Shown: positions 3,354 through 13,400 of the stretch, piece after piece
Layout: every line of letters starts with the position of its first letter
Position numbering within the stretch: the first letter of the stretch is position 1
Assembly (NCBI RefSeq): GCF_900112595.1
Contig: NZ_FOMI01000009.1
Coordinates: 62,001-126,000 of the forward strand
Direction of reading: 5' to 3'
From: Algibacter pectinivorans
GTDB lineage: Bacteria > Bacteroidota > Bacteroidia > Flavobacteriales > Flavobacteriaceae
DNA: 64,000 bases
Made by a program: the position numbers and the translations under genes
Notes under the pieces: generated by a model
Database searches by the model: none
The model's input: the letters and a program-made list of their open reading frames with translations, nothing else
Told to the model about the DNA's origin: nothing

Positions 3354-4685
3354 TTAATGTGTTTGAGGCGTAGGACCTTGATTTATCGTTTTTCCAACTA
3401 ATACTAAAAATAATAATCCCAACAGCATATACAAAGCGACAAAACCAAGTAAGGTAAATAATGTATTCCCAGAAGATACGGTAGGTGAAATACCATCGCT
3501 AGTTTTTAATAAACCGTAAACAAGGTATGGTTGTCGTCCTAACTCGGTAGTATACCAACCTGTTAAATTTGCTATATAAGGAAAAGGTACTAAAAACATA
3601 ATTGTCCATAGTAATGGTTTAATAGTATAAAGGTTTTTTCGTATTAAAAAGAATAAGGCCAATGCCATAACACCTATAAAAATAGTACCTAAGCCAACCA
3701 TTATGTGATACGAATAGTAAAGCGCAGGAATATTACTAGGTAGTTCCTCTTCTTTAAATTGATCCATACCCGGAATTTGTTTGTTCCAATCTTGATGCGT
3801 TAAAAAACTTAAAATATTGGGGACAGCAATTTTATTATCCAATTTTTTATCTACCATATTGGGTTGCCCAATAAGAACAATTTCAGAACCAGCTTCTTCG
3901 GTTTCAAATATACCTTCCATGGCGGCAAAAGCTGCTGGCTGATGTTTAGCCACGTTTTTAGCATTCCAATCGCCTGTAGGGAACGCTACTAATAGGCTAG
4001 AAACCAAACCAAAAATGACCCCTGTTTTTAAGAATAGTTTTCCGTACTCCACTTGTTTATTTCTCAACACATAAAAGGCGCCTATGCTGGCAACAACAAA
4101 AGAAGATGTTACTACAGAAGCCATTTGGTTATGTAAAAATGCAGGTAAAAGCCAAGGGTTAGAAAAAAGATCTCCAAAATTATTAAGTACAAATTTTCCG
4201 TTTTCTAATATTTCATAACCCACAGGATGTTGCATCCAAGCATTTGTTGCCAAAATAAACCATCCACTTGCCCACGAGCCTAAAAAGACTAAAAAACCAG
4301 TTAAAAAGTGTAGTTTTTGCCCCATTAACTTTTCTCCAAAAATAAACAAGGCTAGAAAAGAAGATTCTAAAAAGAAAGAGAACATGCCTTCCATGGCTAA
4401 AGTTTGGCCTATAACACTACCTGTTAATTCTGAAAACTTTGCCCAATTGGTTCCAAACTGAAATTCCATAGGAATGCCAGTAACAACACCCATAGTAAAA
4501 TTAATAGCAAAAATGTTCATTAAAAATTTGGCAGCATTATTATATTTTTCAATTTTAGATAGTAAATACTTCCCTTTTAAAAAGACTATCAATAGTGATA
4601 ATCCCATGGTTAGCTGCGGAAATATATAATGAAATGTGATAGTAAATGCAAACTGCAATCTATCGTAAAAGAGCATGTCTTCCAT
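3354..4685 (-). CDS. cydA: cytochrome bd oxidase subunit I
   Basis: Subunit I of the cytochrome bd quinol oxidase; it binds haems b558, b595 and d and oxidises quinol while reducing oxygen. Visible ligands and key residues line up with the E. coli numbering: H19 (TFHYIFPQ), E99 and E107 in AMEGMFSFFLESS, and H185 (FLHNQMAS), equivalent to H186. The Q-loop begins with KHQPAAFAAMEGIFET and the signature GRQPY sits before the final helices (GRQPW in many homologues). At 443 residues it is a compact form with a short Q-loop. It is the first gene of a cydA-cydB-small membrane protein operon transcribed leftward; no clear promoter was recognised in front of it. Confidence 0.95.
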   Translation of the reverse strand: MEDMLFYDRLQFAFTITFHYIFPQLTMGLSLLIVFLKGKYLLSKIEKYNNAAKFLMNIFAINFTMGVVTGIPMEFQFGTNWAKFSELTGSVIGQTLAMEGMFSFFLESSFLALFIFGEKLMGQKLHFLTGFLVFLGSWASGWFILATNAWMQHPVGYEILENGKFVLNNFGDLFSNPWLLPAFLHNQMASVVTSSFVVASIGAFYVLRNKQVEYGKLFLKTGVIFGLVSSLLVAFPTGDWNAKNVAKHQPAAFAAMEGIFETEEAGSEIVLIGQPNMVDKKLDNKIAVPNILSFLTHQDWNKQIPGMDQFKEEELPSNIPALYYSYHIMVGLGTIFIGVMALALFFLIRKNLYTIKPLLWTIMFLVPFPYIANLTGWYTTELGRQPYLVYGLLKTSDGISPTVSSGNTLFTLLGFVALYMLLGLLFLVLVGKTINQGPTPQTH

Positions 4686-5001
4686 ATTCTAATTTTAGGC
4701 TATAAAAATACAACACAGATCGTTAAATTGACGCTGTTTTACTATAAAAGTATATAAAAATAAGGCTGTATTATTTAAAATAAACTTCTACTTAGCGAAT
4801 TAAAAAACTTCTATGAAAATCCACTGAATTTTAACCCTATACTAAAGTTAATATTCTATGTTAAAATAAAAAGTAAATGTTTTTAAATACCTAATTTAGG
4901 TTTGTAACTCATGTTACGTCCGGTATGTTATTATAGAAAGGTTGAGATATAAAAGAGGTTTTATGAAGCGTTATTTGTATTATAATGTAAATCGAATACC
5001 T
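4686..5001. other. gene-free stretch upstream of cydA
   Basis: An AT-rich stretch between the cydA start and the 48-codon gene at 5002. It must hold the leftward cyd promoter. I looked for an FNR-type TTGAT/ATCAA palindrome and saw none. No hairpin, repeat or coding potential was recognised. Confidence 0.5.
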
Positions 5002-5148
5002 TTAGTTATCGTCTGGTGGGGTGTTTTTTTTGCCTCCCATCATAAAGTTAATCAAAATACCTACTAAGGTTAGGCAAACCAGAGCGAAAATAGCAATCAT
5101 TATTACGCCATTACTCCAGTTGTATAATGCTATGTTTTGAGTTATCAT
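5002..5148 (-). CDS. 48-residue single-pass membrane protein
   Basis: A small gene found by reading the minus strand: ATG at 5148, stop TAA at 5002-5004, 48 codons. The product has a short polar N-terminus (MITQNIALYNWSNG), one hydrophobic segment of about 20 residues at 15-36 (start VIMIAIFALV), then a basic and acidic tail containing MMGGKKN and ending in PPDDN. Clean start, one helix and a charged tail argue for a real small membrane protein rather than noise. Flavobacteria carry similar short proteins, but I cannot name a family. It lies between cydA and tRNA-Arg, on the same strand as cydA but about 320 bp ahead of it, so it is probably its own unit. Function unknown. Confidence 0.6.
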   Translation of the reverse strand: MITQNIALYNWSNGVIMIAIFALVCLTLVGILINFMMGGKKNTPPDDN

Positions 5149-5386
5149 GTTTAAAGTATTTAGTCGTTACTATAAAGTGTAAATGTATTAACCCTAGTTT
5201 TTATTAAATATGATTTTTATCAGTATAGTTGTTTAAAAATTATTTTGACTGATGCTCTAACTTAATTTATAAAACATTACTGGTGTTTTAATAGTCTCGA
5301 ACAATTGATGTTAGGCTAATATTAGAGATAAGCTTTTATTATTGATAAAAACAATTTTTAAAATTTATTTAAATAGAAAGAAAAAA

Positions 5387-5419
5387 TTTGGTGGTTTTTT
5401 ATAAAAAAATGTATATTTG
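5387..5419 (+). promoter_or_regulatory. tRNA-Arg promoter, Bacteroidetes type
   Basis: A TTTG box at 5387-5390 is followed after 21 bp by TATATTTG at 5412-5419, which fits the Bacteroidetes -33/-7 promoter form TTTG and TAnnTTTG. It ends 13 bp before the tRNA, as expected for a stable-RNA gene. Confidence 0.65.
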
Positions 5420-5432
5420 CACCCACAAAAAA

Positions 5433-5506
5433 GGCCTCGTGGCGCAACTGAATAGCGCACTTGATTACGGCTCAAGAGGTTACAGGTTTGAATCCTGTCG
5501 AGGTCA
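5433..5506 (+). tRNA. tRNA-Arg (anticodon ACG)
   Basis: A complete cloverleaf can be folded: acceptor GGCCTCG (5433-5439) with CGAGGTC (5499-5505), with one G-U pair; D stem GCGC/GCGC; anticodon stem CTTGA/TCAAG around the loop TTACGGC; and T stem ACAGG/CCTGT around TTTGAAT. Bases 34-36 are ACG (5467-5469), reading arginine CGN codons after inosine modification. The discriminator is A5506 and the CCA end is not encoded. The D-loop has a single G followed by A where GG is usual. A strong hairpin terminator follows directly. Confidence 0.95.
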
Positions 5507-5508
5507 CA

Positions 5509-5540
5509 AAAAGCTTTCAAGAAATTGAAAGCTTTTTTTT
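5509..5540 (+). terminator. intrinsic terminator of tRNA-Arg
   Basis: A 12-bp stem AAAAGCTTTCAA / TTGAAAGCTTTT with a GAAA tetraloop, continuing into a run of T, starts 3 bases after the tRNA end. Confidence 0.9.
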
Positions 5541-5650
5541 GTTTACTCTGTTCCCCATTAATATTCACGAAACTATTTATAAGTACAAGACAAAATGGTG
5601 TTTTACTTATAAAAATACTATGCTAATTTCTTATTTAGTTTGAATAGGAT

Positions 5651-5722
5651 TTCAATTCATCATACAAATTTTACAGTTCGGTAATTAAGAGTTTTTGAAG
5701 TTGCCCTTGTAATGCACCTTTG
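5651..5722 (+). promoter_or_regulatory. paired LytTR-type sites before the TonB-dependent receptor
   Basis: Two 12-bp direct repeats, TTCAATTCATCA (5651-5662) and TACAGTTCGGTA (5672-5683), start 21 bp apart. The second contains ACAGTTCGG, which fits the known LytTR half-site pattern [TA][AC][CA]GTTN[AG][TG]. Exactly 31 bp further on is CACCTTTG (5715-5722), placed like a -7 box. The same geometry is found before the LytS operon at 9570. Binding by the LytTR regulator encoded at 12645 is inferred. Confidence 0.55.
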
Positions 5723-5784
5723 CGGTATGTTACTTGTGTTTCAGTAACTCATCAAAAAAATCGAACAGTAAAATTACATTCATC

Positions 5785-7938
5785 ATGAAAAAAATTACCA
5801 TGATCCTAGTGGCGTTAATCAGCCTACAAGTATCGGCTCAAACCATTATAAGCGGAACCGTTTTTAATGCCAAAAACGAACCTATAGAAGGTGCTAACGT
5901 TTATTTAGAAGGCACGTACGATGGCGCTACTTCTAACGAAAAAGGAGCCTTTTATTTTGAAACCCCAGCAACAGGAACCCAAACTTTAGTGGTTTCATTT
6001 TTGTCGTACGAGCCATTTACAATAGTTGGCGATGTTTCTTTTATGAAAGGTATAGAAGTAAAATTACGAGAAGATGTAAGCGCTTTAGATGCCGTGGTAT
6101 TATCGGCAGGAACATTTTCGGCAGGCGATAATAGTAAAGTTAATGCTTTAAAACCTCTAGATGTAGTAACTACTGCCAGTGCATTAGGCGATTTTGTAGG
6201 TGCTTTACAAACCTTACCAGGAACGACTACGGTGGCCGAAGATGGCAGGTTATTTGTTAGAGGTGGCGAGGCTAACGAAACTCAAATTTTTATTGATGGT
6301 ATTCGTGTATTTACGCCATATTCTCCAACTACAAATAATGCTCCAACACGCGGTAGATATTCGCCTTTTTTGTTTGATGGCATTACGTTTTCAACTGGAG
6401 GATATTCCGCCGAATATGGGCAAGCCTTATCGAGTGTTTTACTTCTAAATACAACAGATGAGCCCGATCAAGAAAAAACAGATATAGGTATAATGAGCCT
6501 TGGTGCTACGCTTGGTAATACGCAAAAATGGAAAAAGAGCGCTTTAAGCGTTAATGCATCATACATAAATTTAACACCTTATAATGCTATTTTTAAAAGC
6601 AGAAATGATTGGATAAAGCCTTTTGAAACCGTATCGGGTGAAGCTGTTTTTAGAAAAAAAACAAACTCAGGCTTGTTTAAGCTTTACGGAGTTTTTGATG
6701 CTACTAATTTCGAGCTTACTCAAGATGATATTAATGAGCCAGAAGGGGCTTATTTTAAACTTAAAAACAATAATTTTTACTTAAACGGATCGTATCAAGG
6801 TGTATTAAATGATACTTGGACTTTTTTTAGTGGCGTTAGTTTAACGCAGGCTAAAAACGACTTAAATATAATTGAAAGCAAGGTAAATAACCACGAAAAG
6901 TCTTTGCACGCTAAAATGAAATTTAAAAACAGAATTAGTAACCGTTTGAAACTTTATTTTGGTACCGAATATTTTGCAACTCAATTTAACGAATCGTATA
7001 AAGACACTTCTATTGTCCATGAAGATTATGGATATAATAATAACATTGCAGCCGTTTTTGCCGAAGCCGATATCTTTATATCTAAAAATTTAGCGCTTAA
7101 AACTGGGCTGCGTGGCGAGTATAGTGCAATTTTTAAAGATTTTACAATGGCACCACGAGTTTCGGTTGCTTATAAAACAAGTAGTAAAAGTCAAGTATCT
7201 CTGGCTTATGGTAATTTTTATCAAAACCCTTCAAGTAATATTTTAAAGTTTAATACAGACTTAAAAGCGGAAAATGCGTCGCATTATATTTTTAATTATC
7301 AATACAATGGCGATAGACAAGTTTTTAGAGCCGAAGGCTATTATAAAAACTATAGTAATTTGGTTAAGTATGATACAGAGTTTACCAATTTTAACAGCAA
7401 TTATACCAGTAATGGTAGCGGTTATGCCACGGGATTAGATTTGTTTTGGAGAGATAGTAAAAGCATTAAAAATTTCGATTACTGGTTAAGTTACTCACTT
7501 TTAGATACCCAACGCGATTACAATAATTATCCAACAAAAGCGCAACCCAATTTTGCAAATACGCATAATGCATCGGTTGTGGGAAAATATTGGATAGACT
7601 CATTGCGTAGTCAGGTTGGTATGAGTTATAGTTTTGCTTCGGGAAGGACGTATACAAACCCCAATAGCACAGGTTTTTTAAACCATAAAACAAAATCATT
7701 TAACAACTTAAGTTTAAATTGGGCTTATTTAATTAGTCCGCAAAAAATACTCTATGCCTCGGTAAATAATGTGTTAGGATTTAAAAATATTAACGGTTAC
7801 CAATATGCCAATGCACCAGATGTAAATGGAACTTTTAATAGACGTGCTTTACAACCGGCTACCGATCAGTTCTTTTTTGTTGGCTTCTTTTGGACCATTA
7901 GCGACGATAAAAAAAGCAATCAGTTAGATAATTTATAG
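5785..7938 (+). CDS. TonB-dependent receptor with carboxypeptidase-like domain
   Basis: An outer-membrane TonB-dependent receptor of 717 residues; its ligand is not evident. The start is taken at ATG 5785, giving the signal peptide MKKITMILVALISLQVSAQ; the in-frame TTG at 5734 would put 17 polar residues in front of it. After the signal peptide comes a carboxypeptidase regulatory-like domain (ISGTVFNAKNEPIEGANVYL, about residues 20-105), then a plug (GALQTLPGTTTVAEDGRLFV, then RGGEANETQIFIDG, about 115-230), then a beta-barrel ending in an aromatic-rich strand (DQFFFVGFFW) followed by a short tail. There is no SusD partner, so it is not a standard polysaccharide locus. A paired LytTR-type site lies upstream. 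A TonB gene follows two genes later. Confidence 0.85.
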   Translation: MKKITMILVALISLQVSAQTIISGTVFNAKNEPIEGANVYLEGTYDGATSNEKGAFYFETPATGTQTLVVSFLSYEPFTIVGDVSFMKGIEVKLREDVSALDAVVLSAGTFSAGDNSKVNALKPLDVVTTASALGDFVGALQTLPGTTTVAEDGRLFVRGGEANETQIFIDGIRVFTPYSPTTNNAPTRGRYSPFLFDGITFSTGGYSAEYGQALSSVLLLNTTDEPDQEKTDIGIMSLGATLGNTQKWKKSALSVNASYINLTPYNAIFKSRNDWIKPFETVSGEAVFRKKTNSGLFKLYGVFDATNFELTQDDINEPEGAYFKLKNNNFYLNGSYQGVLNDTWTFFSGVSLTQAKNDLNIIESKVNNHEKSLHAKMKFKNRISNRLKLYFGTEYFATQFNESYKDTSIVHEDYGYNNNIAAVFAEADIFISKNLALKTGLRGEYSAIFKDFTMAPRVSVAYKTSSKSQVSLAYGNFYQNPSSNILKFNTDLKAENASHYIFNYQYNGDRQVFRAEGYYKNYSNLVKYDTEFTNFNSNYTSNGSGYATGLDLFWRDSKSIKNFDYWLSYSLLDTQRDYNNYPTKAQPNFANTHNASVVGKYWIDSLRSQVGMSYSFASGRTYTNPNSTGFLNHKTKSFNNLSLNWAYLISPQKILYASVNNVLGFKNINGYQYANAPDVNGTFNRRALQPATDQFFFVGFFWTISDDKKSNQLDNL

Positions 7939-7961: not shown

Positions 7962-8471
7962 CTATTTAATGCGCCTTGCCTGTGTGGTAAAGGATAAACC
8001 TTGTTGCCCTTTGGTAGAATTCATAACACCTTCAAATAAAGGTTCTGGACAGCCTTTAGGGACTTTCCATTCAAAAATAAAATTAGAGCCTGTGCCACCA
8101 GCAACATCGGTTTCATCAATTATTATTTCGGTGGTTTCCATAGGGCCCAAATAAATAGGGTCTTTAAAATAGGTTTTTACTGGTGCGCCATGAGAATCGT
8201 AGTAATTAGCCTTTAAAAGATATATGGTGTCTAAATCGCTGGTGTTTCTTAAGCTCACCATAACAGTTAAATTATGAGTAGTGTGCTCAGAAACGCTATA
8301 AATTTGAGAATATATAGATAGATACGATTTTCCATATTCCAAAGAATCTGTAGCTTTTATGTTCGCCTTACGTTTCGACCAGTTTTCATGGTGAAGCGAA
8401 CTAACCTCTTTCGTTTCATTACAACTTAAAAAAATAAAGAACAGTGCAAGCGAAAAATATTTTAGTTTCAT
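7962..8471 (-). CDS. DUF3124 lipoprotein
   Basis: A 169-residue predicted lipoprotein with signal peptide and lipobox LFFIFLSC (cysteine 17). The rest resembles the DUF3124 family: LRNTSDLDTIYLLKANYYDS, then ETTEIIIDETDVAGGTGSNF, then FEWKVPKGCPEPLFEGVM and the closing GQQGLSFTTQ. The family has no known function; its beta-rich pattern suggests a periplasmic or surface domain. It points toward the TonB-dependent receptor gene and ends 24 bp from it, with no terminator hairpin recognised between them. Confidence 0.8.
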   Translation of the reverse strand: MKLKYFSLALFFIFLSCNETKEVSSLHHENWSKRKANIKATDSLEYGKSYLSIYSQIYSVSEHTTHNLTVMVSLRNTSDLDTIYLLKANYYDSHGAPVKTYFKDPIYLGPMETTEIIIDETDVAGGTGSNFIFEWKVPKGCPEPLFEGVMNSTKGQQGLSFTTQARRIK

Positions 8472-8746: not shown

Positions 8747-9484
8747 ATGGAAGCTAAAAAAAATCCAAACTTAGACATAGGAAGAAATAGCAGCATTTAT
8801 TTTGCTATAGGGTTAAACTTAATGTTGTTTTTATCATGGCAGGCGTTAGAATATAGAACCTATGATAAAGCAGAATCTAATATCGATATTGTAGAAATGG
8901 AAGACGTAGTCGAAGAAGATATTCCTATTGTTTCCATGAATACGTCACCACCGCCACCACCACCGCCACCAGCGGCTATTAGCGAATCGGTTGAAATTGT
9001 GGACGATGCCATTGAAATTGAAGAAACTGTAATTGAAAGTACAGAAATAGATCAATCTGATGCTATTGAAGAGCGCATTGTATCTGTTGGAGATGTGGTT
9101 GTCGAAGAAATAGAAGAAGACGTTCAAGTGGCTTTCGCGGTTATTGAAGACGTACCTGTATTTCCAGGATGCGAGGGCTTATCTAAACAGGCCACTAAAG
9201 ACTGTTTTCAAAAAAAGATGTTAGAGCATGTTACCAGTAATTTTATTTACCCTCAAGCCGCTTTAGATTTAGGAATTCAAGGTCGAGTATCCGTAATTTT
9301 TGTAATAGATAAAACAGGATACATAACAGGGATTCGTTCTAGAGGTCCAGATAAAATATTGCAAAAAGAGGCAGAGCGTATTATAGGTAAATTACCCAAA
9401 ATGGAACCTGGTAAACAACGTGGTAAGCCAGTAAAAGTAGCTTACGCAGTTCCAATATTTTTTAAGTACGATAGTGGGTCATAG
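8747..9484 (+). CDS. tonB: energy transducer TonB
   Basis: TonB family protein of 245 residues that couples the inner-membrane proton gradient to outer-membrane receptors. It has a short cytoplasmic N-terminus, one membrane anchor at about 16-34 (SSIYFAIGLNLMLFLSWQAL), an acidic region, a run of eight prolines (near residues 68-75), a strongly acidic linker rich in E, V and I, and a C-terminal TonB domain (FIYPQAALDLGIQGRVSVIF, then KVAYAVPIFFKYD). The MPG-like pair PKMEPGKQRGKPVKVAY is typical. No exbBD is nearby. It may serve the receptor at 5785, though TonB proteins are usually shared. Confidence 0.9.
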   Translation: MEAKKNPNLDIGRNSSIYFAIGLNLMLFLSWQALEYRTYDKAESNIDIVEMEDVVEEDIPIVSMNTSPPPPPPPPAAISESVEIVDDAIEIEETVIESTEIDQSDAIEERIVSVGDVVVEEIEEDVQVAFAVIEDVPVFPGCEGLSKQATKDCFQKKMLEHVTSNFIYPQAALDLGIQGRVSVIFVIDKTGYITGIRSRGPDKILQKEAERIIGKLPKMEPGKQRGKPVKVAYAVPIFFKYDSGS

Positions 9485-9569: not shown

Positions 9570-9641
9570 TACAATTCAGTATTAAAAAATTACAATTCGG
9601 TAAGTTGGTTTTTTAAAACCTTTAGTTCTGTTGGATATTTG
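9570..9641 (+). promoter_or_regulatory. paired LytTR-type sites before the TPR/LytS operon
   Basis: Two nearly identical 12-bp direct repeats, TACAATTCAGTA (9570-9581) and TACAATTCGGTA (9591-9602), start 21 bp apart, two helical turns. A -7-like box GATATTTG (9634-9641) lies exactly 31 bp after the second repeat, the same distance as in the copy at 5651. Each half-site differs from the LytTR pattern at one base (A for the central G). Autoregulation by the LytTR protein of this operon is inferred. Confidence 0.6.
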
Positions 9642-9666
9642 TTGCATCATTTTAAAACAATCAATC

Positions 9667-10290
9667 ATGAAACAATTAATTATTATTGCAACACTACTAA
9701 TTTCAGGATTAGTATCTGCACAAACAAGTTATGAAAAAGGTATGCAAAAAGCCTTTAGTTTATGGGAGCAAAACCAACCAACCGAAGCTTCAAATTTATT
9801 TGAGCGTATTGCACACGCAGAACCAGATAACTGGTTGCCGCCTTACTACGCGGCTCAAATTAATATCCTATATAGTTTTGGCGAAAAAAATGAAGATGTC
9901 CTTGCAGCTAAATTAAAAAAAGCTCAAAATTTAATTAATGATGCTACCGCCATTTCAAAGGATAATCCAGAAATTTTGGTGCTTCAAGCCCTTTTACATA
10001 CCGTTTGGGTTACTTTTGATGGTGCTACCTATGGCATGACACTATCAGGTAAGGTTGTAGAGTTATATACTAAAGCAAAACTTTTAGATCCTACAAACCC
10101 TCGTGCTGTGTATTGTAAAGCAGAGTGGGATATGGGTGGAGCAAAGTATTTTGGTCAAGACATCACGCCATTTTGTAAAGATTTAGAGCACGCCACAGAA
10201 CTTTTTGCTAACTTTAAACCAGAAACTGCATTTCACCCAAATTGGGGAGCAGATAGAGCAAAAATGTTGTTAGACTCTTGCCAAAAATAA
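9667..10290 (+). CDS. periplasmic TPR-repeat protein
   Basis: A 207-residue secreted protein of unknown function. The start is placed at ATG 9667, which gives a signal peptide MKQLIIIATLLISGLVSAQ; an in-frame TTG at 9631 would add 12 residues before it and would also overlap the likely promoter. Helical repeats are visible: EKGMQKAFSLWEQNQPTEAS with FERIAHAEPDNWLPPYYAAQ, and later VVELYTKAKLLDPTNPRAVY, both matching the TPR pattern. It is the first gene of a run that includes a LytS-type kinase 22 bp downstream and 2TM proteins, so it may act as an extracytoplasmic accessory of that signalling unit; this is inference from context only. Confidence 0.75.
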   Translation: MKQLIIIATLLISGLVSAQTSYEKGMQKAFSLWEQNQPTEASNLFERIAHAEPDNWLPPYYAAQINILYSFGEKNEDVLAAKLKKAQNLINDATAISKDNPEILVLQALLHTVWVTFDGATYGMTLSGKVVELYTKAKLLDPTNPRAVYCKAEWDMGGAKYFGQDITPFCKDLEHATELFANFKPETAFHPNWGADRAKMLLDSCQK

Positions 10291-10312: not shown

Positions 10313-11653
10313 ATGATAAAATCAAATAAAAATATCATTATCACAGTTGTAATTGGCTGTATCATTTTTGCTATTGGTAATTTAATATCGGGTGGTTTTA
10401 ATTTTAAAACGGTAACAGATTTTTTAGTCAATTTTAGCTTTTATCAGTTGTATTCCTTTGTGTTAGGCTATTCCAATATGTTTTTTTTCGATTATATGGA
10501 ACGCCGCAACTGGAAAAAAGGCGATGCTATAAAACGGGTTGTTGCGGGCATTATTGGTTCTACTGTTTTAACATTAATAGGTTTGTTTTTGTTAAGAACA
10601 ACAACTGCTATGGTGTTTAAAGGTTTAACTTTTTCAGAATTTATTAGTAATGAGCGTTTTGAGTTTTATCAATTTGGGTTGTGGATCACCTTAACCATTG
10701 TTGTTATTTTTCATGTTATTTATTCGTATAACAAGTATCAGCAAAATAAAATTAAAGAACAAAAAGTTATTGCAGGAACCGCAAGCGCTAAGTTCGATGC
10801 TTTAAAAAACCAATTAGACCCACATTTTCTATTTAATAGCTTAAATGTATTAACCAGTTTAATTGAAGAGAATCCTGTTAATGCTCAAAAATTTACAACA
10901 TCTTTATCCAAAGTATATCGCTATGTTTTAGAGCAAAAAAATAAAGAATTGGTAACGGTAGACGAGGAGTTAAAATTCGCCAAAACCTACATGTCGCTGC
11001 TTAAAATGCGTTTCGAAGATAGTATTGTTTTTACCATGCCCGAAAACGCCTCAAACCCAGAAAGCAAAGTCGTGCCATTATCATTACAACTACTGCTAGA
11101 AAATGCAGTAAAGCACAACATGGTAACCCCTAATAAACCTTTACAAATAAGAATTTACGAAGAGGCAGGTAATTTAGTAGTCGAAAACAACTTACAACCT
11201 AAGCAAATAGTAAAAAAGAGTAGCGGTGTAGGCTTAAGCAATATCATGCAACGCTATGGTTTATTAACCAACAAACAAGTAAATATATATAAAGAAGCAA
11301 ACCGTTTTGCAGTGTCAATACCTATGCTTACTAAACAAATATCAGTTATGAGAAACGAACCATCCACATCAAAACTAGACGATAGTTACATGCGTGCATT
11401 AAACCACGTCGACGAGCTAAAAGGCTTCTATTACAGCCTAATATCTTACTGCTTAGTTATTCCCTTTTTAATCTTTATAAATTACCGAACCTATTGGGAT
11501 TTCCAATGGTTTTGGTTCCCAATGTTTGGTTGGGGAATAGGCTTAGCCATACAAGCCTTTAGAGTATTTGTAAACGACGGTGCATTTGGCCGGAACTGGG
11601 AAAAGCGTAAAATGGAAGAGTACATGCAAAAGGATAAAAACGATTGGGATTAA
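10313..11653 (+). CDS. LytS-type sensor histidine kinase with fused C-terminal 2TM domain
   Basis: A 446-residue membrane histidine kinase of the LytS/His_kinase family. Four membrane segments lie in the first 140 residues (about 8-28, 40-60, 75-96, 120-140). The kinase core follows: phospho-acceptor H171 in NQLDPHFLFNSLNVLTSL, N-box LLLENAVKHN (about 260-269) and the glycine motif SSGVGLSNI (303-311). Unusually, residues about 359-446 form a 2TM domain (LKGFYYSLISY, INYRTYWDFQWFWF, WGIG, WEKRKMEEYM) that is paralogous to the two small genes just downstream. The partner is the LytTR response regulator at 12645. Cues are unknown. Upstream paired direct repeats suggest autoregulation. Confidence 0.9.
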   Translation: MIKSNKNIIITVVIGCIIFAIGNLISGGFNFKTVTDFLVNFSFYQLYSFVLGYSNMFFFDYMERRNWKKGDAIKRVVAGIIGSTVLTLIGLFLLRTTTAMVFKGLTFSEFISNERFEFYQFGLWITLTIVVIFHVIYSYNKYQQNKIKEQKVIAGTASAKFDALKNQLDPHFLFNSLNVLTSLIEENPVNAQKFTTSLSKVYRYVLEQKNKELVTVDEELKFAKTYMSLLKMRFEDSIVFTMPENASNPESKVVPLSLQLLLENAVKHNMVTPNKPLQIRIYEEAGNLVVENNLQPKQIVKKSSGVGLSNIMQRYGLLTNKQVNIYKEANRFAVSIPMLTKQISVMRNEPSTSKLDDSYMRALNHVDELKGFYYSLISYCLVIPFLIFINYRTYWDFQWFWFPMFGWGIGLAIQAFRVFVNDGAFGRNWEKRKMEEYMQKDKNDWD

Positions 11654-11665
11654 AATACAGTAGTC

Positions 11666-11968
11666 ATGCAAAATAATTCAGAAAATCAAATCAGTAAAAA
11701 GCAAGAGCAGGCGCGCCAACACATCCAAAATATAAAAGGGTTTTACCAGCATCTTGTTGCTTATATTTTATTTATTCCATTTACCATTTTTATAAATTAC
11801 AAAACCTATTGGGATTATAAATGGTTTTGGTACTCCATAATCATTTGGGGTATAGGGGTAGCCATTCATGCACTTCGAGTTTTTGTGTTTAAAGATGCTT
11901 TAGGCTCAAAATGGGAAGCACGCAAAATAGAAGAGATTATGCGAAAAGAAGAAAACAAATGGGAGTAA
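11666..11968 (+). CDS. free-standing 2TM domain protein
   Basis: A 100-residue protein consisting almost entirely of one 2TM domain: a basic amphipathic lead (KQEQARQHIQNIKGFYQHL), a first membrane helix (VAYILFIPFTIFINYKTYWD), an aromatic WFW turn, a second helix with IIWGIGVAIHALRVFVF, and a charged tail (WEARKIEEIMRKEENKWE). It is closely similar to the C-terminal domain of the preceding kinase, and even the DNA matches around the FINYxTYWD segment, so a tandem duplication is likely. It starts 12 nt after the kinase stop. It may bind or modulate the kinase through like-with-like association; that is inference. Confidence 0.85.
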   Translation: MQNNSENQISKKQEQARQHIQNIKGFYQHLVAYILFIPFTIFINYKTYWDYKWFWYSIIIWGIGVAIHALRVFVFKDALGSKWEARKIEEIMRKEENKWE

Positions 11969-11991: not shown

Positions 11992-12327
11992 ATGCAAAAT
12001 GCTAATATAGAACCATTCACTAAAAATAATTATGATAAAGAGCAGGCCTATATACGCGCCAAAAAACGTGTAAAAGCGCTAAAAGGATTTTATTGGCACC
12101 TGTTCTGGTACATCCTAGTAAATATTTTTTTAATAGCTATGATAGCCATAAACTCAAGCAGTGCCCAATTCTGGCAATTTGGAACCTTTTCAACTGCTTT
12201 TTTCTGGGGTATTGGTATCGTTTTTCATGCCATAGGCGTATTTGCTAAAAACCCAATATTTAGTAAAGCCTGGGAAGAAAAAAAGATTAAAGAGTATTTA
12301 GAAAAAGATAAAAAACAGTGGAAATAA
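11992..12327 (+). CDS. second free-standing 2TM domain protein
   Basis: A 111-residue 2TM protein, third paralogue in the operon. The start is set at ATG 11992 (MQNANIEPFT); a TTG/ATG-like extension to 11911 would overlap the previous gene by 58 bp and read it out of frame. It shares RAKKRVKALKGFYWHLFWY, FFWGIGIVFHAIGVF and the tail WEEKKIKEYLEKDKKQW with its neighbours, but the loop between the helices is longer and lacks the NYxTYWD block. It starts 23 nt after the previous stop. Beyond it lies an intergenic repeat element that separates it from the response regulator gene. Confidence 0.85.
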   Translation: MQNANIEPFTKNNYDKEQAYIRAKKRVKALKGFYWHLFWYILVNIFLIAMIAINSSSAQFWQFGTFSTAFFWGIGIVFHAIGVFAKNPIFSKAWEEKKIKEYLEKDKKQWK

Positions 12328-12364: not shown

Positions 12365-12508
12365 GGGCGCTACCGCACCCTTCGTCTACGCTCAGGGCAG
12401 GCGGTCAGGCTTTCAGCAGTCGCTTTTTTGTGTTGCATACCTGCCTGCCGGCAGGCAGGAGTGCAACAACACAAAAAGAGCTCCAACAAATGCCTCAATC
12501 CCTAGCGC
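12365..12508 (+). repeat. intergenic palindromic-end element, copy A
   Basis: An element framed by GGGCGCTA (12365-12372) and TAGCGC (12503-12508). It shares the 3' segment GAGCTCCAACAAATGC...TCAATCCCTA with the copy at 19041. Its end bases are GCGCTA/TAGCGC where other copies have GCGTTA/TAACGC, so both sides changed together. Its middle carries a perfect 20-bp palindrome (12440-12459) flanked by TTTTTGTGTTGCA and its near-complement, forming a long hairpin. A further stem, CAAGGTTT/AAACCTTG, follows at 12556-12575. Together these fill the 317-bp gap before the response regulator gene. Confidence 0.7.
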
Positions 12509-12644: not shown

Positions 12645-13400
12645 ATGAATGTAATTATTATAGAAGACGAAAAACCATCAGCAAGACGCTTACAACGCAT
12701 GCTTCAAAGTCTAGATCTAGAAGCTCAAGTCATGTTGCACTCGGTCGAAGAATCCATAAATTGGTTTCAAAATAACTCGCATCCCGATTTAATTTTTCTA
12801 GACATTCAATTAAGCGATGGCTTATCTTTCGAGATTTTCGAAGCTATCGAAATAAAATCGGCCATCATTTTTACCACTGCTTACGATGAGTACGCATTAC
12901 AAGCCTTCAAACTAAACAGTATCGACTATTTGCTAAAACCTATTGATGACGACGATCTAGCAACCGCAGTAAAAAAATATCAAGAACGCGCACCGCAAAA
13001 GCAAGCCGTAACCCTCGATTTTAACGATATTAAAAAATTACTAATAAATCCTTTAGATCGGGAGTATAAAAAACGATTTTCGGTTAAAGTTGGGCAGCAC
13101 CTAAAACTTATAAATATAGACGAAATAGAATGCTTTTATAGCGAAAACAAAGGCACCTATGTACACACCACCGAGGGCCGAAACTATCTTTTAGATACGA
13201 CCTTAGATAATCTAGAAAACGAGTTAGAACCCAATACCTTTTTCCGTATTAATCGTAAGTTTTTTGTTAATATTAATGCCATAAAAGATATGGTGAGTTA
13301 TACCAATTCGCGTTTGCAAATAAAATTAAACACGTACAACGAGCAAGATGTTATTGTGGCACGAGAGCGGGTTAAAGATTTTAAAAACTGGTTGGAATAG
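12645..13400 (+). CDS. LytTR-family response regulator
   Basis: A 251-residue response regulator made of a receiver domain (about 1-120) and a LytTR DNA-binding domain (about 145-251). Receiver residues visible are the acidic pocket IIIEDE (E7, D8, E9), phospho-acceptor D53 in LIFLDIQLSDG, T77/T78 and K98 in LLKPIDD. The LytTR part includes LINIDEIECFYSENKGTYVH, LDNLENEL, then FFRINRKFFVN. It is the natural partner of the LytS-type kinase at 10313. LytTR proteins bind paired direct repeats, and such pairs occur at 9570 and 5651, so control of its own operon and of the TonB-dependent receptor is predicted. It is separated from the rest of the operon by repeat A. Confidence 0.93.
   Translation: MNVIIIEDEKPSARRLQRMLQSLDLEAQVMLHSVEESINWFQNNSHPDLIFLDIQLSDGLSFEIFEAIEIKSAIIFTTAYDEYALQAFKLNSIDYLLKPIDDDDLATAVKKYQERAPQKQAVTLDFNDIKKLLINPLDREYKKRFSVKVGQHLKLINIDEIECFYSENKGTYVHTTEGRNYLLDTTLDNLENELEPNTFFRINRKFFVNINAIKDMVSYTNSRLQIKLNTYNEQDVIVARERVKDFKNWLE

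Follow-up and report, generated by a model that had tools for sequence, protein, structure and literature searches.

Binding sites of LytTR-type regulators are described, in excerpts of PMC6193735 and also of PMC2766830 and PMC4064291, as 9-bp imperfect direct repeats with a 12-bp spacer, mostly ~10 bp upstream of the -35 element; according to the same excerpts HdrR activates its own operon through such repeats. We analysed a window (the whole stretch of DNA studied, 64,000 nt) of Algibacter pectinivorans, contig NZ_FOMI01000009.1, from a genome of 3.65 Mb; coordinates are positions in this window. Two pairs of direct repeats stand in it, one before an operon for a TPR-like protein, a histidine kinase and 2TM proteins (site A, 9570-9641) and one before the gene of a TonB-dependent receptor (site B, 5651-5722). 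In repeat length, period and place they match these known LytTR activator sites. Very probably the repeats are a LytTR-type activator operator fused to a weak sigma-A promoter, through which the LytTR response regulator of the operon would activate its own operon as part of a conserved envelope regulon with few members. Computation shows the site itself, how rigid its geometry is and that it is conserved; it also shows which genes follow it and that site and regulator occur together across genomes.

Geometry of the paired repeats

For comparison, 42 relatives' sites were stacked ungapped as a logo and built into a sequence-only profile (R1; 38 training genomes, all with the regulator), with the window's own two sites left out of both. 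The parts of sites A and B are as follows, with the evidence for each in brackets.

9570-9581, + strand: first half-site (upstream repeat) of site A, TACAATTCAGTA (sequence, pair search, logo, profile)
9585-9588, + strand: A-tract between the repeats of site A (kept in relatives, logo positions 16-19)
9591-9602, + strand: second half-site of site A, TACAATTCGGTA, starting 21 bp after the first
9609-9613, + strand: T-tract of site A in the -33 region (logo positions 40-44; predicted -37 to -33)
9634-9641, + strand: -7 box of site A, GATATTTG (family form [CG]AnnTTTG; predicted -12 to -5)
9646, + strand: predicted transcription start of site A (conserved pyrimidine-purine step, logo positions 76/77)
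5651-5662, + strand: first half-site of site B, TTCAATTCATCA (sequence, genome pair search, profile)
5672-5683, + strand: second half-site of site B, TACAGTTCGGTA (sequence, genome pair search, profile)
5715-5722, + strand: -7 box of site B, CACCTTTG (sequence)
5727, + strand: predicted transcription start of site B

The period of 21 bp and the 31-bp gap to the AnnTTTG box are identical at sites A and B. An initial annotation of this DNA had given this spacing and this distance to a -7-like box for 9570-9641, which is correct to the base, and had read the same distances at 5651-5722, which the sequence check bears out. The ATG of the TPR-like gene (9667) lies 97 bases after the start of site A. 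Upstream of the receptor promoter there is a tRNA-Arg gene (anticodon ACG; 5433-5507, +).

Aligned in register, the half-sites of A and B agree at 9/12 and 11/12 bases, the gap at 15/31 and the upstream flank at 24/60, and this low agreement in the gap and upstream indicates that the two are not simple copies of one promoter. Both copies do lie within 4 kb, which would suit the duplication of one promoter segment, or chance. We give such an origin next to no credence, since A and B agree so little outside the half-sites and box, and since it is already contradicted by the counts in other genomes.

Lone half-sites, whether in the window or in the genome, were rejected as evidence because their counts are uninformative: in the window they are not enriched (29 with up to two mismatches versus 35 expected), and three of the six exact half-sites in the genome fall inside unrelated open reading frames. 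The pair pattern is another matter. With up to three mismatches it occurs twice in the whole genome, exactly at sites A and B, versus no occurrence of the reversed-pattern control; with up to two mismatches it occurs in 199 Flavobacteriaceae genomes at 44 places in 40 genomes, versus 2 places in 2 genomes for the reversed control. When the spacing was left free (periods 10-32 bp), 66 of 75 exact matches had a period of 21 bp, the remaining nine being spread over 7 of the 22 other allowed periods. These counts uphold the initial view that the geometry is hard to explain by chance, and the conservation in other Flavobacteriaceae that had been proposed for inspection is present, the same site and spacing recurring across many members.

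Promoter anatomy in relatives

The relatives' sites form one conserved 72-bp block: TACARTTCRGTA, a 9-bp spacer with the A-tract, TACARTTCRGTA again, a T-tract 7-11 bp on, then [CG]AnnTTTG. In logo coordinates the second repeat ends at 33, the T-tract occupies 40-44 and the -7 box 65-72. Having no -7 box, one place (L058, in G129) was judged chance-like and excluded from the logo, from R1 and from the downstream-gene census below. Although the box was absent from the search pattern, TT stands at positions 69-70 in 42/42 sites (42/43 with L058). A66 is found in 41/42 and G72 in 33/42; position 65 is C or G in 36/42 and T in 5/42 (the first T of the box is lacking in 37/42). Further on, position 76 is a pyrimidine in 36/42 and position 77 a purine in 39/42. 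The half-site core of the logo, ACARTTCRG, matches 8/9 positions of a LytTR half-site consensus, [TA][AC][CA]GTTN[AG][TG], reportedly given by Nikolskaya and Galperin in 2002; position 4 is G or A in the logo versus G in the consensus.

In a transcriptome map of Flavobacterium psychrophilum, as excerpted from PMC9723704, the sigma-A box TAnnTTTG sits at -12 to -5, which would put +1 at logo position 77, that is, at 9646 and 5727. The AnnTTTG box found here is a close variant of that sigma-A box, with position 65 usually C or G, not T. If the start site is predicted correctly, the repeats would span about -76 to -44.

Conservation of the whole 72-bp block as a unit would also fit repeats that belong to an alternative-sigma promoter and are not a regulator site. 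We regard this as very improbable. Sigma contacts do not usually extend to -76 to -44, and the repeats follow a LytTR gene across genomes, as described in the next section. The box, moreover, is close to the sigma-A TAnnTTTG of F. psychrophilum in the excerpted map (PMC9723704).

Co-occurrence with the regulator and the predicted regulon

An orthologue of the LytTR response regulator of the operon, called at E <= 1e-50, is present in 153 of the 199 genomes. R1 finds a site at E <= 1e-5 in 138/153 genomes with the regulator versus 1/46 without it; the corresponding figures are 130/153 versus 0/46 at E <= 1e-6, 150/153 versus 14/46 at E <= 0.01 and, with the 38 training genomes removed by hand, 100/115 versus 1/46 at E <= 1e-5. 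Many of the regulator-less genomes are small. Of the 46, 13 reach 2.6 Mb or more, and a site at E <= 1e-5 is present in one of these 13.

We also collected 80 named loci through the regulator itself (at least 82% identity over the best segment; Algibacter, Winogradskyella, Tamlana, Lacinutrix and others). The site lies upstream of the regulator operon on the coding strand in 77 of the 80, some of the species probably being R1 training genomes as well. In the three loci without it, the sequence ahead of the regulator is only 108, 313 and 1520 bases long. The gene that follows the site in the 77 loci codes for a TPR-like protein (39), a DUF2141 protein (30) or a kinase-like protein (8).

Several points weigh against autoactivation by this regulator. 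The Fisher test of co-occurrence does not correct for common descent of the genomes, and 38 of the 199 genomes supplied training sites for R1. No site at E <= 1e-5 is found in 15 of the 153 regulator-bearing genomes, and G094, whose regulator is 65% identical, has none at E <= 0.01 (a true miss). Among the 46 regulator-less genomes, five match at E <= 1e-3 and, as given above, 14 at E <= 0.01; of two weak matches inspected, the one in G051 (L332; an 88%-complete genome) shows a box at the expected offset, unlike the one in G046 (L331). Because a 317-bp gap with a strong hairpin separates the regulator gene from the last 2TM gene, transcription from the site A promoter may reach the regulator gene only in part. 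This hairpin (12424-12475), which could attenuate read-through into the regulator gene, holds a perfect palindrome, CCTGCCTGCCGGCAGGCAGG, at 12440-12459, a dispersed repeat element with 22 copies in the genome (10 exact, 12 with one mismatch). Finally, the genome encodes seven intact LytTR proteins, six besides the regulator of the operon.

Given these seven, and a loosely similar motif that the excerpts of PMC6193735 describe as common to LytTR proteins, the repeats could be a LytTR target whose main regulator is another protein of this kind, the operon being just one client. We consider this quite unlikely, since the sites at E <= 1e-5 follow this particular orthologue, and G007 and G022, which passed the regulator threshold at merely 43-44% identity, have no site at E <= 0.01. 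The single exception, G006, is the sole regulator-less genome with a site at E <= 1e-5, and its locus (L335, about 4000-7400) is decayed. There the receptor and TPR-like genes are fragments, and neither kinase nor regulator was found. G006 retains matches before genes for DUF2141 (E 3.1e-6) and DUF2807 (E 0.0098), as expected for relics. Specificity for the operon's own regulator rests on co-occurrence and operon linkage, and some cross-talk from other LytTR proteins may occur. An eighth LytTR match in the A. pectinivorans genome (contig 10:115222-115434) lies in an open frame of just 68 aa interrupted by a single TAA, and looks like a broken paralogue.

On its own genome R1 scores site A at 61.4 bits (E 3.4e-16) and site B at 42.0 bits (E 3.6e-10), and it finds a third member outside the window (contig 15:14306-14379; 30.5 bits, E 1.5e-6), the next match having E 0.109. 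The third site precedes a DUF2807 gene (PF10988, E 2.1e-46) and keeps the 31-bp gap to GATATTTG. Its neighbours are a PadR gene, a second DUF2807 gene and a gene whose product combines PspC, LiaI-LiaF-TM and Toastrack domains.

A census of downstream genes covered 104 sites, namely 60 further sites (E up to 2e-9, in listing order) and 44 earlier ones (42 from relatives and 2 own), with genes classed by phmmer against the window proteins and Pfam-typed relatives. The first downstream gene was that of a TPR/kinase/2TM operon at 43 sites, DUF2141 at 31, a receptor orthologue at 19, DUF2807 at 6 and another gene at 5, among these a DUF2306 membrane protein (L053). All 60 added sites have A66 and TTT at 69-71, but they were chosen by a profile that includes the box.

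Two of the sites (L053, L227) precede a small ~160-aa membrane protein, DUF2306 in L053 (PF10067, E 7.3e-10) and similar by eye in L227, a possible further member of the regulon. At six loci (L046, L192, L224, L236, L243, L249) a 2TM-type gene within the operon or close to it is preceded by a site; L046 has this one as a second site, behind the one that heads the operon.

In a class-wide sample, R1 at E <= 1e-4 matched 12 of 295 genomes, eight of the same family (own genome included), one of another family of the order and three of other families of the class. Among the four matches outside the family, the 31-bp gap and an AnnTTTG box are both present in L175 and L176, L178 has TACATTTG at a 32-bp gap, and L177 has no box.

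Proposed mechanism and comparison with known systems

The genes behind the two sites in the window are:

9667-10290, + strand: head gene of the operon, for a small exported TPR-like protein (its TPR_14 match is weak and misses the Pfam cut-off)
10313-11653, + strand: LytS-type histidine kinase with a C-terminal 2TM domain (PHFLFN at residue 170, ENAVKH at residue 263; His_kinase PF06580)
11666-11968, + strand: 2TM protein (domain match)
11992-12327, + strand: second 2TM protein (the mechanical open reading frame begins at 11911; ATG 11992 was chosen by eye)
12645-13400, + strand: response regulator with receiver (PF00072) and LytTR DNA-binding domain (PF04397, E 5.2e-23), the proposed binder of the sites
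5785-7938, + strand: TonB-dependent receptor (CarbopepD_reg_2, plug, barrel) after site B, the second predicted target

Between the receptor gene and a TonB gene (8747-9484) lies a DUF3124 gene (7962-8471, -); no R1 match with E < 0.1 precedes the DUF3124 gene or the TonB gene. In a simple hydropathy scan the kinase has three clear hydrophobic segments ahead of its catalytic part; a fourth can perhaps be made out by eye. A large external domain is lacking, and this arrangement fits sensing within the membrane. A search of NCBIfam with the kinase gave no match, and none of the matches of the TPR-like protein, the receptor or TonB, nor any of the 25 of 29 regulator matches that were listed, reached the NCBIfam cut-offs. 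Identification of the TPR-like protein as LcrH/SycD was rejected as generic TPR similarity (19.7 bits versus a cut-off of 104.8). When the single regulator protein was used to search PDB sequences, all 34 matches lay in or around the receiver domain; a LytTR alignment found a single chain, 3d6w (E 7.5e-4; deposited name 'Methyl-accepting/DNA response regulator'), plus two weak, unrelated matches.

The initial annotation had proposed autoregulation of the operon by its LytTR protein from a site just upstream of the -33 region. This is the best-supported account, given the LytTR-type geometry, the 77/80 loci and the co-occurrence, and from it we infer the identity of the binder, activation, its dependence on phosphorylation and a signal, in the following order. 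The LytS-type kinase (10313-11653) would sense a signal, probably in the envelope, and phosphorylate the LytTR response regulator (12645-13400). The regulator would then bind both direct repeats as a pair on one helix face, at about -76 to -44, and so sit directly upstream of the T-tract that would replace the -33 element. From there it could help the sigma-A RNA polymerase to use the imperfect -7 box ([CG]AnnTTTG instead of TAnnTTTG). Output would rise from its own operon (positive feedback), from the TonB-dependent receptor gene at 5785 and from the gene for a DUF2807 envelope protein elsewhere in the genome.

Activation is favoured because the repeats lie upstream and the -7 box is weakened. 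A regulator that represses, or that represses or activates depending on its phosphorylation, seems rather unlikely: 31 bp lie between the repeats and the -7 box, which places the repeats upstream of the -33 region, and in most of the relatives' sites the box has another base in place of its first T. Both traits are typical of activator-dependent promoters. The Toastrack/PspC neighbourhood of the third target, together with the excerpted survey of Lia/Psp systems (PMC11237479), weakly suggests envelope stress as the setting.

A broader proposal is made tentatively, as one that we would sooner doubt than adopt. Flavobacteriaceae might have an envelope-stress response that has gone unrecognised, with this system, a self-amplifying LytS-2TM/LytTR switch, at its core; it would be a LytTR-based counterpart of Lia/Psp. 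Its regulon would comprise its own operon, one receptor orthologue and the envelope proteins DUF2141 and DUF2807, all under one rigid promoter design in much of the family, and it would decay as a block when the regulator is lost (one genome so far, G006). In the part of the open-licence PMC literature surveyed, we found no description of a LytTR operator or regulon in Flavobacteriaceae, and a search for DUF2141 and '2TM domain-containing', judged by title, returned nothing relevant. With this site, any flavobacterial genome can be scored by a model at base resolution. The site links a single two-component system with one TonB-dependent receptor and with four families of no known function (the TPR-like partner, 2TM, DUF2141 and DUF2807). 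For a kinase so far uncharacterised it lays out a testable pathway, with a defined promoter, a predicted start and a short target list.

The likeness to Lia/Psp, drawn from excerpts of PMC11237479, is one of functional analogy only. The third target, DUF2807 (Toastrack), whose control is predicted from sequence, stands beside PspC/LiaI-LiaF-TM/Toastrack and PadR genes, and the sensor operon here also encodes small membrane proteins. The Lia regulator LiaR, however, is a REC-wHTH protein, whereas a receiver is joined to LytTR here.

Among LytTR systems, the LytTR Regulatory System (LRS) differs in having a membrane inhibitor and no phosphorelay, whereas a receiver domain and a His_kinase are encoded in the present operon. 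Bacteroides LRS-like operons, as excerpted from PMC6193735, come from the same phylum and also have direct repeats before a LytTR operon. Theirs, however, are 11-bp repeats with an 11-bp spacer, and the operons encode membrane-bound LytTR proteins with an NfeD/DUF2154 partner, unlike the soluble receiver-LytTR regulator and kinase found here.

The LytTR operators of AgrA, SilA, PlnC and HdrR/BrsR are also close. As far as the excerpted accounts go, they too are imperfect direct repeats of ~9-12 bp with a ~21-bp period just upstream of the -35/-33 element. As in other autoregulated cases, a LytTR regulator (PF04397) is encoded in the operon behind the site, and as with HdrR in those accounts the repeats precede its own operon, with positive feedback shown for HdrR and proposed here. 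The present sites differ from all of these in their Bacteroidota-type [CG]AnnTTTG promoter and in the conserved A-tract between the repeats, and their predicted targets are a 2TM kinase operon and envelope genes, in contrast to bacteriocin, virulence and quorum-sensing genes. The kind of operator is already known from LytTR; what is new is its scale, a rigid promoter design across much of a family together with a small coherent regulon.
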